This document shows positions 2,629 through 40,468 of a stretch of DNA of 41,731 bases, piece after piece. Numbering within the stretch: position 1 is the first letter of the stretch; every line of letters starts with the position of its first letter. The notes beneath the pieces were generated by a model, which did not search any database, was not told where the DNA came from, and saw only the letters and a list, made by a program, of their open reading frames with translations. Position numbers and translations under genes: made by a program. The stretch comes from Candidatus Moraniibacteriota bacterium. GTDB lineage: Bacteria; Patescibacteriota; Minisyncoccia; Moranbacterales; UBA9337. Location of the stretch: assembly GCA_029865125.1 (NCBI GenBank), contig JAOUHN010000004.1, forward strand, positions 1 through 41,731, read 5' to 3'.

Positions 2629-3000
2629 ATGAAAAATAAAAAGATTTTATTAAGTGCAGCAATAATTTTGAGTATTATTGCTGGAACGATTTATAAAAAT
2701 AGGTATTTTAATGATCTAGGGACATTTTTATTTTTGTTTTCCTTGGCGTTAATTATAATTTTTATTGTATTATATTTTGTGAAAAATGAAGGGGTATTTA
2801 AGATTTGGAGGAATTTTGCAGGGGTGTATTTATCGATTGCTATTATCTTGGCAGTGATTACTCCTGACACGCCTGGGTTTCTTCGTCCGGATAGTGAAAT
2901 TATATCACTTTGGCTTGCTGGAATATTTTTTGTGGTGAGTTTGGGGATTATTCTTGGAAAGAGAGATCATCACAGCCCGCTTGATTTGGATGAATGCTAG
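2629..3000 (+). CDS. Small 4-TM membrane protein, paralog 3 of 5
   Basis: Hydrophobic segments and shared C-terminus SLWLAGIFFVVSLGIILGKRDHHSPLDLDEC. Confidence 0.8.
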   Translation: MKNKKILLSAAIILSIIAGTIYKNRYFNDLGTFLFLFSLALIIIFIVLYFVKNEGVFKIWRNFAGVYLSIAIILAVITPDTPGFLRPDSEIISLWLAGIFFVVSLGIILGKRDHHSPLDLDEC

Positions 3001-3134
3001 AACGAGAATTGAGTCCGTCAGTTGACGGAGAGATTTGAGATAGAGAAACCAGATTGAGATCAGAAAATAGTAATTTAAAAAAAAGAAAAAACATGACACC
3101 AGATGACGGCCGTCGGCTCGTGTCCTGTTTGAAA
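2911..3134 (+). repeat. Direct repeat block, copy B
   Basis: Near-identical to 2289-2511. Confidence 0.9.
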
Positions 3135-3138
3135 GGAT

Positions 3139-3702
3139 ATGTATAGAATTGGACCAGTTCAAAAAAAGATCATAGTTACTCTTGTGGGAGGTGTGGTGTT
3201 AGGATCGACTTCATCTCCAAGGCAATATTTCAAGGTATTGCGTGAAATAAAAAGAGAGTGGAAAAACATTAATTCTAGAAGTTTTTCTCGTTCTATGCAA
3301 AGGCTTTCTCGTGAAAAACTAATTGAAAAGAAAATGCTTCCAAATGGAAATTTTAAGCTGGAGTTAACTAAAAAAGGAAAAAATGAAGCAAGAAAGCTGA
3401 GTTTATTGGGGAGTAGTGTTGCGTGCAAGAAGCCAAAAAAGTGGGATGGGAAATGGAGAATTGTTATTTTTGATATTCCTGAAAAAGATCGAATATTCAG
3501 AGGTATTTTGAGAGAACATTTGTATGAATTAAAATTTGCTAAATTGCAACAAAGTGTTTTTGTTTCTCCGCACCCCTTTGAGAGAGCTATTCTTGAATTG
3601 ACGAGGCTATATTCTGCTGAGCGCTATGTGCGAGTAATTACAGCTTTGAAAATTGACAACGAACAAGAAATTAAAAAGAAATTTCAAGGAATAATAAAGT
3701 AG
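3139..3702 (+). CDS. HTH plus Cas2-fold, PaaX-like protein
   Basis: N-terminal HTH-like region, then 'KWRIVIFDIPEKDRIFRGILREHLYELKFAKLQQSVFVSPHPFERAI', typical of PaaX C-terminal/Cas2-like proteins. Confidence 0.7.
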   Translation: MYRIGPVQKKIIVTLVGGVVLGSTSSPRQYFKVLREIKREWKNINSRSFSRSMQRLSREKLIEKKMLPNGNFKLELTKKGKNEARKLSLLGSSVACKKPKKWDGKWRIVIFDIPEKDRIFRGILREHLYELKFAKLQQSVFVSPHPFERAILELTRLYSAERYVRVITALKIDNEQEIKKKFQGIIK

Positions 3703-5256: not shown

Positions 5257-6618
5257 ATGGAGAATCAGGTATATAAAAAATTAAAAGAGAGCATTTCTGA
5301 TATAAGAAGAGATGAGCTTCCGAAAATGGTAGATCAGCTAATTCGCTTAGGCGCTTTTGAGGTGACTTTTCCAGTTTTTAAAAAAGGCTTGATTTTAAAA
5401 AATCCTGGTTTTAATACTAAAAAAGGTTGCTCTATAAAGTCGGGTTGTCATGGTGATTCTGAAACAAAAGATGGGAAGATAAGAATTGAGTATAGCGTTC
5501 AAGAAGACTGGAGAGGAAAAGTTAAAGCAGAGATAAAAAGATTTAATGAATCAAATGAAAAGGATAAGGTTGAAACTTTTGTATTTGCCACAAATCAATA
5601 CTTGGACAATAAGGAGATTGAGTATCAAGAGAATGGAAAAAAAATAAAAAAAAGTATTGAAGAATATATTAAAGATAAAACAGGGGTTGGTAATGTTATT
5701 GTTTTAGGATTGGATGATTTACTTTCACCGCTAAGTGATCCAGAATTCTCTGGTGTGAGAAGGGATTTTTTAAAAATCGAAAATGAATTTTTTATAAATA
5801 GTCAACAATATTTAGATGGACTTGAAAAGTATAGGCGATATAGAATAAGTGATGGTGAAAAAAAGTCTGTCAGCGGTGCAAGTAAATTATTGCAGCAAGT
5901 AAGTAGTTTATCATGGAAAATTAAAAATGCAGAATGTAAGATAATTTTTATTAATGGTACAAGCGAGAATTTTAAAGAATTGTTGCGCTTAGTGGGCAAT
6001 GCTGCCAATGTCATTAAGTGTGAAGATGATCAAGAGATGGTTTTTATAAGATATCCTAGAAAAGATTTCACTATAAGGCAAGAGCACATTGATGAGATTA
6101 CGGGGAATGGTATTAAATATATTACAATATGGGATCCTGAGAAAATTAATAATCTAAATGATTATTCTCAGTTTGAGCAAGGGCAAAATAAAATGGTTTT
6201 TGTTTGTGCAAACAATAAGGAGTCTAGCAAAATTATTAATGAAATGAATTTAGAAGAGGGTGAATATGAAATTATAGAAGCTTTTATGGGTGATACCGAA
6301 AGCACCTTTGATATTGATAATTATGAAAAGGGATTAGATATAAAAAAGGATTATTCAGGAAATGCTGTAAAATATCAAGCGATGACTTATTTGTATGGGC
6401 CAATCAATATTAATGATAGTGAGATAAGAGTTAAAATTCGTAAATTAGTGGGGATAAATAAAAAAGAGGAGGAATTTATATTAAAAAACCTAATACAAAA
6501 AGATGCTTTGAATAGAGTTGGAAACTTGGTTAGTGTTAGCGATTTTAAACTGGGTAAGAATATTCTAGAAAAATTAGTGAGTAGTGGTGAAATAGATATA
6601 AATAATTTAATGGTTTAA
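5257..6618 (+). CDS. Protein of unknown function, possible degenerate nuclease-like N-terminus
   Basis: Long ORF. 'GCHGDSETKDGKIRIEYSVQEDWRGKVKAEIKRF...VETFVFATNQ' resembles N-terminal nuclease-like domains of STAND/defense proteins; no Walker A seen. Confidence 0.55.
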   Translation: MENQVYKKLKESISDIRRDELPKMVDQLIRLGAFEVTFPVFKKGLILKNPGFNTKKGCSIKSGCHGDSETKDGKIRIEYSVQEDWRGKVKAEIKRFNESNEKDKVETFVFATNQYLDNKEIEYQENGKKIKKSIEEYIKDKTGVGNVIVLGLDDLLSPLSDPEFSGVRRDFLKIENEFFINSQQYLDGLEKYRRYRISDGEKKSVSGASKLLQQVSSLSWKIKNAECKIIFINGTSENFKELLRLVGNAANVIKCEDDQEMVFIRYPRKDFTIRQEHIDEITGNGIKYITIWDPEKINNLNDYSQFEQGQNKMVFVCANNKESSKIINEMNLEEGEYEIIEAFMGDTESTFDIDNYEKGLDIKKDYSGNAVKYQAMTYLYGPININDSEIRVKIRKLVGINKKEEEFILKNLIQKDALNRVGNLVSVSDFKLGKNILEKLVSSGEIDINNLMV

Positions 6619-36221: not shown

Positions 36222-36249
36222 TTGCATGAGATGTAACTTGTGGTATAAT
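36222..36249 (+). promoter_or_regulatory. nrdR promoter
   Basis: TTGCAT - 16 nt - TATAAT. Confidence 0.55.
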
Positions 36250-36260
36250 TATCGCGTAAC

Positions 36261-36276
36261 ACACTACATGTAGTGT
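36261..36276. promoter_or_regulatory. NrdR box
   Basis: ACACTACATGTAGTGT, perfect 16-bp palindrome fitting the NrdR-box pattern, just downstream of the -10. Confidence 0.75.
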
Positions 36277-36367: not shown

Positions 36368-36820
36368 ATGATTTGTCCATTTTGCAGCCATAGTGAAACA
36401 AAAGTTGTTGATTCAAGAGATACTAATGATGGGAAAGCCATTAGGAGAAGACGAGAATGTGAGAAATGCAATGCGCGTTTCAGCACATATGAGGAGATGG
36501 AAATAATGCGTTTGTCAGTCATCAAAAGAAACGGAGAAAAAGTTGAATATAATCAAGAAAAGGTTGTTTCAGGTCTTAGAAAGGCCCTGGAAAAAAGACC
36601 CATTACGGAAGAGAAGTTTGAAAAAATAGTGAGTGATATTGAGCATAAGATTTATTCCAAGGGGAAAAATGAGATAAAAAGTAAGGAAATTGGAAGAATA
36701 ATTCTGGAAAAACTGAAGGAAGTTGACGATGTTGCCTATTTGAGGTTTGCGAGTGTATACAAGTCATTTGGCAGTGCAACAAGCTTTCGAAAAGAATTGA
36801 GTAAACTGGAGGAAAAATAA
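36368..36820 (+). CDS. nrdR: Transcriptional repressor NrdR
   Basis: MICPFCSHSETKVVDSRDTNDGKAIRRRRECEKCNARFSTYE; ATP-cone. ORF track start 36344 is probably too early. Confidence 0.96.
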   Translation: MICPFCSHSETKVVDSRDTNDGKAIRRRRECEKCNARFSTYEEMEIMRLSVIKRNGEKVEYNQEKVVSGLRKALEKRPITEEKFEKIVSDIEHKIYSKGKNEIKSKEIGRIILEKLKEVDDVAYLRFASVYKSFGSATSFRKELSKLEEK

Positions 36821-36891: not shown

Positions 36892-38997
36892 ATGAAAGAG
36901 GGCAAAAAAACTAAAAAGAAAGAAGTGAAAAAAAACACAAAAAGCAACAAAACTGTAAGTAAAGTCAAAAAGATTATCAAAAGAAGCGGAAGAGTTGTTC
37001 CATTCAAGCAAGAAAAAGTTGTGGCAGCTGTTTTGAAAGCTTTCAAGGAAACCGGAGAGGGTGCTGAAAAGGAAGCAGAAAAAGTGGGAGCAAAGGTTGT
37101 TCAAATGCTTAATAAACAATATAGAGATGGTTCTGTTCCTGAAATTGAGGAGGTGCAGGATGTTGTTGAAAAGGTTTTGATGGTTCTTGATTTCGATGAG
37201 ACTGCAAAGGCGTACATTTTGTATCGTGATCAGCACAGAAAGGTGAGAGAGACAAAAGACGCTTTGAAGGATGCTATTGATTTGGTGGAAGGGTATATCA
37301 GTGAATCTGATTGGAGAGTGAAAGAAAATTCAAACATGGGATTTTCTCTTCAAGGTCTCAATAATCACATTTCTTCTGCAGTGAGTTCAAAATATTGGAT
37401 GAACAGGGTGTATACCAAAAACATTCGTGATGCTCATGAAAATGGTGATTTGCACGTTCATGATCTTCAAATGGTGGCAGCATATTGTTGTGGTTGGGAT
37501 TTGCGCGAACTTTTGGTGCAAGGATTTGGTGGAGTGATGGGAAAGGTTGTGAGTGCCCCTCCAAAGCATTTTAGAAGTGCTTTGGGTCAAGTGGTGAACT
37601 TCATCTATACTCTTCAGGGAGAGGCAAATGGTGCGCAAGCTTTTGCAAATTTCGACACACTACTTGCTCCATTCGTGCACTATGACAAGTTGAGTCAAAA
37701 GGAAGTGAAGCAGGCCATTCAGGAATTTGTTTTCAACATGAATGTTCCAACCAGAGTTGGATTTCAGACACCTTTTTCAAACATCACAATGGATCTTCAA
37801 GTTCCATCAAATTTCAAAGATGAACCGGTGGTTATTGGAGGAAAGCTTCAGAAGAAGAAATACGGAGCTTTTCAGAAGGAAATGAACATGATCAACAAGG
37901 CTTTTGCAGAAGTGATGACTGAGGGAGATGCACAAAACAGAGTTTTCACTTTTCCGATTCCGACATATAACATCTCAAAGGAATTTGATTGGGAGGATCC
38001 AGCATTGAAACCGATTTGGGAAATGACAGCAAAATATGGAATGCCATATTTCGCAAATTTCGTGAATTCTGACATGAGTCCTGATGACGCAAGAAGCATG
38101 TGTTGCAGACTTCGACTGGATAACAGAGAGCTTAGAAAAAGAGGAGGAGGACTTTTTGGAGCAAATCCAATGACTGGATCAATCGGAGTGGTCACAATCA
38201 ACATGCCAAGAATTGGATATCTTGCAAAAGACAAAAAAGAATTCTTCCAAAAACTTGATGAATTGATGGATATTGCCAAGGAGAGCCTAGAAGCAAAAAG
38301 AATTTTCATTGAAAGATTGACTGAAATTGGACTATATCCATATTCAAGACACTACTTAAAGTCAATCAAGATGAGAAGAGGAAAATATTGGTCAAATCAC
38401 TTTTCAACAATTGGGCTTGTGGGGATGAATGAAGCACTTTTGAACCTCATTGGAAAAGACATCACGACGTACCAAGGAAACAGACTTGCTCAAAAGATTT
38501 TGAATCACATGAGAGACAAGATGGTGAAATATCAGAAAGAAACTGATAGTATGTATAACCTGGAAGCAACTCCAGCGGAAGGAACAACATATCGTTTGGC
38601 AAAGGCAGACCAAAAGAGATTCCCAGACATGATTTTTGCCAATGACAATGCTGTGAAAAATGAAGGAGCGGAGCCATATTACACAAACTCATCTCAACTT
38701 CCAGTAGGACACACCAGTGATATTTTCGAGGCTCTCGATCTTCAAGATGGTCTTCAAACGAAATACACCGGAGGAACAGTGCTTCATGGATTCTTGGGAG
38801 AAAAAATCAATGATCTTGAAACCGTGAAGAATTTGGTGCGAACAATTGCAAGCAAATATTCACTGCCATATTTCACATTCACTCCAACATTCAGCATTTG
38901 CCCTGTGCATGGATACATCGCGGGAGAGCATCAAACATGTCCGAAGTGTGCAATTGAAATCAAGAAAAAGGATGTGAAATTTGAGAAGGTGAAATAG
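36892..38997 (+). CDS. nrdD: Anaerobic (class III) ribonucleoside-triphosphate reductase, lacking the C-terminal glycyl-radical motif
   Basis: ATP-cone, ARSMCCRLRLD, GSIGVVTINMPRIGYLA, YWSNHFSTIGLVGMNEA, YNLEATPAEGT, SICPVHGYIAGEHQTCPKC; stops (TAG) before any RVxGY motif. Confidence 0.95.
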   Translation: MKEGKKTKKKEVKKNTKSNKTVSKVKKIIKRSGRVVPFKQEKVVAAVLKAFKETGEGAEKEAEKVGAKVVQMLNKQYRDGSVPEIEEVQDVVEKVLMVLDFDETAKAYILYRDQHRKVRETKDALKDAIDLVEGYISESDWRVKENSNMGFSLQGLNNHISSAVSSKYWMNRVYTKNIRDAHENGDLHVHDLQMVAAYCCGWDLRELLVQGFGGVMGKVVSAPPKHFRSALGQVVNFIYTLQGEANGAQAFANFDTLLAPFVHYDKLSQKEVKQAIQEFVFNMNVPTRVGFQTPFSNITMDLQVPSNFKDEPVVIGGKLQKKKYGAFQKEMNMINKAFAEVMTEGDAQNRVFTFPIPTYNISKEFDWEDPALKPIWEMTAKYGMPYFANFVNSDMSPDDARSMCCRLRLDNRELRKRGGGLFGANPMTGSIGVVTINMPRIGYLAKDKKEFFQKLDELMDIAKESLEAKRIFIERLTEIGLYPYSRHYLKSIKMRRGKYWSNHFSTIGLVGMNEALLNLIGKDITTYQGNRLAQKILNHMRDKMVKYQKETDSMYNLEATPAEGTTYRLAKADQKRFPDMIFANDNAVKNEGAEPYYTNSSQLPVGHTSDIFEALDLQDGLQTKYTGGTVLHGFLGEKINDLETVKNLVRTIASKYSLPYFTFTPTFSICPVHGYIAGEHQTCPKCAIEIKKKDVKFEKVK

Positions 38998-39012
38998 CAA
39001 ACAATTGCTCGA

Positions 39013-39354
39013 ATGAGCGTTGAATATATAAAAAATAAAATAACAAAAAATATGGAAAAACAAAAATTGATTTGCCATGATTGCAAAAAAGAGTTGAAGA
39101 AGGGGGATGAGTATGTGAATTATACTCAAGATGGAGAAGCATATTTAATAAAATGTCGAGAATGCTATGAAAAAGATCCTGTAATAAAGAACTTTAAAGA
39201 ATGTGATGTATATTCAAGAGTGGTCGGATTTCACACTCCGATTGGAAGATGGAACAAAGGAAAAAGTGCTGAATGGAAAGACCGAAAGACATTTGAAATA
39301 GGGGAAATGAAAGATGATGAAAAAGATTCTGATGATAAGGATAGCTGCAAATAA
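39013..39354 (+). CDS. Small protein with NrdD-type glycyl-radical motif and Cys4 zinc-ribbon-like segment
   Basis: CHDC...CREC then ECDVYSRVVGFHTPIGRWNKGKSAEWKDRKTF. Same frame as nrdD; alternative start 39052. Confidence 0.85.
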   Translation: MSVEYIKNKITKNMEKQKLICHDCKKELKKGDEYVNYTQDGEAYLIKCRECYEKDPVIKNFKECDVYSRVVGFHTPIGRWNKGKSAEWKDRKTFEIGEMKDDEKDSDDKDSCK

Positions 39355-39380
39355 TTAGGGCGCAGAATTGAAAAAGATAG

Positions 39381-39412
39381 TCAGGGCGATTTCACTCACG
39401 AGATCGCCCTGA
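39381..39412. terminator. Stem-loop after the small glycyl-radical ORF
   Basis: TCAGGGCGAT...ATCGCCCTGA 10-bp perfect stem, no clear T-tract, so terminator function uncertain. Confidence 0.45.
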
Positions 39413-39460
39413 AAAATGATTAAGATTTGAGATGGGAGAGTTTAGAATAAGGTGTTTCTT

Positions 39461-39772: not shown

Positions 39773-40468
39773 ATGAATTTAGTTAGCTTTCAAAAATTTA
39801 CATTGGTGGATTATCCAGGGAAAATTGCAACTACCGTTTTCACGGCTGGGTGCAACTTTCGCTGTCCTTTTTGCTATAATCCAGAATTGGTTTTTTCTGC
39901 ACAACCCGTGACAAACGGAAACAAGATTGAAAAAGATTTTTTCAAATTTCTTGAGAGCAGAAAGGGAAAGCTTGATGGAGTGTGCATCACCGGAGGAGAA
40001 CCAACTCTTCAAAGTGATCTCATTGAATTTATGGGTAAGGTGAAAGACATGGGATATTTCGTGAAGCTGGACACCAACGGAATGAGGCCAGACGCAGTGA
40101 GACGTGCAATTGAAGCAGGTGTGGTGGACTATTTCGCAATGGACATCAAAAACAGTCTGGAAAGATATTCCGAAACCGTGGGAATCAACGTGGACACAGA
40201 AAGAATCAAGCTCTCTGTGGAACTCATCAAAAACAGTGGAGTGGATTATGACTTTCGAACCACAGTGGTCCCCGGAATTCACACCTATGATGATTTCAAA
40301 AGCATTGCCACCTGGATCGGAGGCGCCAAAAAATATGCCCTCCAAGGTTACCGCGACCAAAATATCCTCGACCCAAAACTCCGAGACAAAAAAGGAGAAG
40401 TTTTAGATTTGGAGAAAATTAAGGAGATGATCGAAGGAGAGTTTGGGGAAGTTGTCATTAGAGATTAG
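39773..40468 (+). CDS. nrdG: Anaerobic RNR activating radical-SAM protein
   Basis: FTAGCNFRCPFCYNPELV (CxxxCxxC), GVCITGGEPTLQ. Confidence 0.9.
   Translation: MNLVSFQKFTLVDYPGKIATTVFTAGCNFRCPFCYNPELVFSAQPVTNGNKIEKDFFKFLESRKGKLDGVCITGGEPTLQSDLIEFMGKVKDMGYFVKLDTNGMRPDAVRRAIEAGVVDYFAMDIKNSLERYSETVGINVDTERIKLSVELIKNSGVDYDFRTTVVPGIHTYDDFKSIATWIGGAKKYALQGYRDQNILDPKLRDKKGEVLDLEKIKEMIEGEFGEVVIRD

Follow-up and report, generated by a model that had tools for sequence, protein, structure and literature searches.

A class III ribonucleotide reductase with its glycyl-radical segment encoded by a separate small gene in Moranbacteria

Spare parts of glycyl-radical enzymes are known from pyruvate formate-lyase (PFL). 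GrcA/YfiD of Escherichia coli and Y06I of phage T4 are small free-standing proteins that duplicate the C-terminal glycyl-radical segment of this large enzyme, and such proteins are also found in phages that lack the large enzyme. Spare-part rescue has been validated only for PFL, other glycyl-radical enzymes being named as a possibility (PMC8683613). In canonical class III (anaerobic) ribonucleotide reductases (RNRs), such as the NrdD proteins of Prevotella copri (8p23), Thermotoga maritima (4u3e) and phage T4 (1h79), the glycyl-radical domain is carried by the same chain as the catalytic barrel. RNR alpha chains encoded in two pieces are known from other classes, i.e. the split class II NrdJa/NrdJb (PMC9669993) and the genes-in-pieces class I NrdA (cited in PMC3322345), but in the case described here it is the radical cofactor itself that is detached. 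A survey of RNR insertions and extensions describes split class II RNRs but places the radical domain of class III at the C-terminus of NrdD (PMC9669993), and no split class III RNR or stand-alone NrdD radical protein was found in the open-access literature, subscription papers and preprints not being covered.

The window analysed here is a whole stretch of 41,731 nucleotides (contig JAOUHN010000004.1, assembly GCA_029865125.1) from a 1.03 Mb, 92% complete genome of a member of the Moranbacteria (Patescibacteria). Four genes follow one another on its plus strand. The first one, nrdR (36368-36820), encodes the RNR transcriptional repressor, with a Zn ribbon and an ATP-cone (TIGR00244, E 1e-54); its ORF is listed from TTG 36344, but ATG 36368 is the likely start. 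A candidate NrdR box, ACACTACATGTAGTGT (36261-36276, plus strand), which is a perfect palindrome with 2 mismatches to the consensus, lies just downstream of a TATAAT (36244-36249), 0.57 matches being expected by chance in the whole window at up to 3 mismatches. This arrangement suggests that the nrdR-nrdD cluster is autoregulated. The second gene, nrdD (36892-38997), encodes a class III RNR catalytic subunit of 701 aa that ends with CPVHGYIAGEHQTCPKCAIEIKKKDVKFEKVK, followed by the stop TAG (38995-38997). It matches PRK08270 above the equivalog cut-off and PF13597 (E 4.6e-187), but the latter only from position 1 to 528 of 562, and it has no RVxGY motif. It has the ATP-cone, the barrel, the NxN flap (N146/N148), C199/C200, the finger-loop cysteines C404/C405 and the zinc site C670/H673/C683/C686 (CPVH...CPKC), just after which the protein ends. 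These residues are invariant in an alignment of 30 sequences, and NrdD proteins of the PDB align with it up to residue 687.

The radical segment is found instead in the next ORF, which is open from 38998 to 39351, carries CHDC...KCREC plus CDVYSRVVGFHTPIGRWNKGKSAEWKDRKTF and matches positions 510-562 of PF13597 (E 1.1e-8). Its radical segment, CDVYSRVVGFHTP..RWNKGK..EWKDRKTF, includes the canonical YSRVVGF. A sequence search of the PDB with the small protein gave only weak hits to NrdD C-termini and zinc fingers. The original prediction, according to which the glycyl-radical domain of NrdD is detached onto a separate small ORF with its own zinc-ribbon-like segment, is therefore right. However, the listed ATG at 39013 is probably not the start, and the in-frame extension 39013-39051 is probably not used. 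Orthologues share a conserved A-rich, SD-less start context (A at -6 in 96%, T at -1 dominant) ending with AAAAATATG, which fits ATG 39052, and their proteins typically start a few residues before ICHDC. The gene is thus best read as 39052-39354 (plus strand) and encodes a protein of 100 aa with a zinc ribbon (C8/C11/C35/C38), the radical Gly59 (39226-39228) and a C-terminal Cys. The shared frame of the two ORFs, also noted in the original prediction, is incidental, as orthologues lie in other frames. The fourth gene (39773-40468, plus strand) encodes an NrdG-type radical-SAM activase of the NrdG2 family (TIGR02495, E 3.4e-61) that is predicted to install the glycyl radical. A GC-rich inverted repeat without T-run, CAGGGCGAT...ATCGCCCTG (39376-39413), lies behind the small gene, and the roughly 420-bp gap to nrdG is unexplained.

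Searches of the genome, which is 92% complete, detected one NrdD and one small protein, no class I or class II RNR (PF02867, the positive control being detected in 11 of 14 genomes) and no PFL-type glycyl-radical domain over the cut-off of the profile (PF01228). The small protein itself matches PF13597 and not PF01228. Like GrcA/YfiD, it is a small free-standing glycyl-radical protein with its own start and stop that is conserved as a separate gene, but it belongs to the NrdD family, carries a zinc ribbon and would have a class III RNR as partner, a partner that in this lineage has permanently lost its own segment.

Among 77 genomes of the order, three states were observed. NrdD carries its own radical segment without any small gene in 15 genomes, carries its own segment and coexists with the small gene in 18, and lacks the segment but coexists with the small gene in 25, including the genome studied here and seven others of the same family. 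All 25 genomes whose NrdD lacks the radical motif thus have the small gene, versus 18 of 33 with a fused NrdD (Fisher p 4e-5). The stop between the two genes is TAA, TAG or TGA, the frame varies and the gap ranges from 16 to 409 bp. Independent named MAGs, mostly Candidatus Moranbacteria/Moraniibacteriota, show the same pairs. Both genes are under strong purifying selection (dN/dS 0-0.08 for the small gene and 0.01-0.04 for nrdD), and the residues YSRxVG...K..E...R of the radical segment are invariant in 65 small proteins.

In the 18 genomes that have both forms, the radical segments of NrdD and of the small protein are more alike within a genome (88% identity) than between genomes (80%; 0 of 20000 shuffles) and share 64% of codons at same-residue sites, versus 43% for unpaired segments and 49% expected from codon usage. 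This is what gene conversion or selection for interchangeability would give, although relatedness was only partly controlled. A tree of the NrdD core needs at least five changes of the truncated state, and a single clade is rejected (AU p 1.4e-5); the trees included 55 and 42 of the retrieved sequences, as the motif filter that was applied removed variants. Such trees give changes of state but not their direction. However, one genome (G029) whose nrdD is cut inside the motif (...CEIYSRVL-TAA), while its congeners G045 and G057 keep both forms, is a fresh loss. In another genome (G050), which belongs to another family, both NrdD and the small protein are nested with those of the family studied here, which suggests transfer of the pair. 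In seven genomes reached through unlinked genes encoding the zinc-ribbon plus radical protein (hereafter type A), from Staskawiczbacteria and others, NrdD always keeps its own segment.

The split is not restricted to this order. Among 384 Patescibacteria at least 90% complete that were searched with PF13597, an even sample, 86 bear NrdD; by hand count, the radical segment is on NrdD in 38 and on a separate ORF in 48. Most of these separate ORFs are tiny (45-75 aa), have no zinc ribbon and are located directly after nrdD. A third kind (family f42; ORFs of 151-187 aa, observed in six genomes) has a conserved N-terminal domain unknown to Pfam and is encoded far from nrdD, beside either a truncated or a complete NrdD; the presence of an ATP-cone in the 146-187 aa f42 proteins is not supported by Pfam. 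In one genome (G393), the radical piece is fused to a glutaredoxin/NrdH-like domain (TCPKC) in a single 162-aa ORF (2964-3449 of its locus) next to a truncated NrdD. Of 80 type-A proteins, 55 have two or more cysteines in their last eight residues (CC, CxC or CxxC tails), against 1 of 28 fused NrdD tails; the protein of the window ends with DSCK. Such tails, which are possibly redox-active pairs, recall the redox-active C-termini of class I/II RNRs (PMC9669993), but this is only a lead.

Free-standing radical segments are also carried by viruses. All of the 26 viral records tested carry such a segment and no NrdD barrel anywhere in the record, although these records may be fragments. In three of them, the neighbouring genes are phage genes (RNA ligase, polynucleotide kinase, UvsX, endolysin, minor head protein). 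The ANMV-1 virus of uncultured archaea has a 144-aa type-A protein (5737-6171 of its locus) annotated as 'anaerobic ribonucleoside triphosphate reductase'. A scan of viruses with NrdD gave one relative. This situation parallels that of T4 Y06I for PFL.

Taken as a whole, these data support a two-polypeptide class III RNR (probability of about 0.88), which can be viewed as follows. The catalytic barrel, the ATP-cone and the C-terminal zinc site are on NrdD, whereas the radical-bearing glycine is on the small zinc-ribbon protein. NrdG presumably makes the glycyl radical on the small protein when it is docked in the NrdD barrel, and the radical would then generate the active-site thiyl on the finger-loop cysteine as in ordinary NrdD. 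By homology, the YSRVVG loop of the small protein should sit at the finger-loop cysteines (C404/C405). Docking, activation by NrdG, subunit exchange and repair after O2 damage are inferred only, without expression, proteomic, EPR or activity data. The AlphaFold model of NrdD joined to the small protein, obtained from an alignment in which in-frame neighbours were read through their stops (two earlier alignments that misplaced the small proteins on the NrdD zinc site or barrel were not used), is only moderate (pLDDT 76, pTM 0.75). The zinc ribbon is well predicted (blocks 731-770, pLDDT 76-94), but the radical loop is weaker (61-73) and the finger loop is poor (below 50), so that docking is not demonstrated. 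The model of the small protein alone is weaker still (pTM 0.43), and the higher confidence of the zinc ribbon and of the stretch behind it in the NrdD context is a weak hint. The small protein most likely began as a spare part, a duplicate of the O2-sensitive C-terminus comparable to GrcA/YfiD, and became obligatory in this lineage and, independently, in several others when NrdD lost its own radical segment.

Amber readthrough, which the original prediction had proposed as an alternative to a free radical subunit, would give a single fused NrdD with an extra zinc-ribbon linker. Although the frame is open after the single TAG in this genome, this is rejected, since relatives have various stops, different frames, extra stops and variable gaps, a conserved start context is found at the internal ATG and unlinked radical-piece genes exist in some lineages. 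A self-splicing intron or intein is very improbable. Inteins do appear to occur in NrdD elsewhere in the phylum, as suggested at several sites by open frames of about 950-1550 aa with the profile match in pieces (in eight genomes and at two loci), but no Rfam match was found between nrdR and nrdG, gaps can be as short as 16 bp, each piece has its own stop and start, and the frame is not kept.

Only one assembly of this species was examined, without read data, but a sequencing or assembly error, or a recent pseudogenising mutation, is contradicted by the presence of the same architecture in many independent assemblies from different projects, by purifying selection on both parts and by an extra zinc-ribbon sequence that no simple stop mutation explains. 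It is also unlikely that the small protein of this genome is only a repair part and that NrdD works without it using some other radical source. The spare-part-like distribution in genomes whose NrdD keeps its own domain would fit this view, but NrdD has no radical glycine here, and no other glycyl-radical protein and no class I or class II RNR were found in the assembly. More speculatively, class III RNR might have a dispensable, exchangeable radical subunit, a radical-on-a-peptide comparable in role to the class I beta subunit. This subunit would have arisen at least three times (zinc-ribbon type, tiny radical-only type and 146-187 aa unlinked type), would be supplied in trans by phages to host NrdD and, in some forms, would also carry the reductant (C-terminal Cys pairs, glutaredoxin fusion in G393). 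This view is only tentative.

Glycyl-radical enzymes are textbook single chains whose radical glycine lies at the C-terminus, and whether spare-part rescue exists for enzymes other than PFL was posed as an open question in 2021 (PMC8683613). The family described here appears to give class III RNR, which is essential for DNA synthesis in these anaerobes, both a spare-part stage and an obligate two-subunit stage within one bacterial order, so that the evolutionary route and the docking and activation problem become directly testable. It also suggests a function for many small proteins of Patescibacteria and their phages that are now annotated as hypothetical or as an 'anaerobic RNR' fragment.
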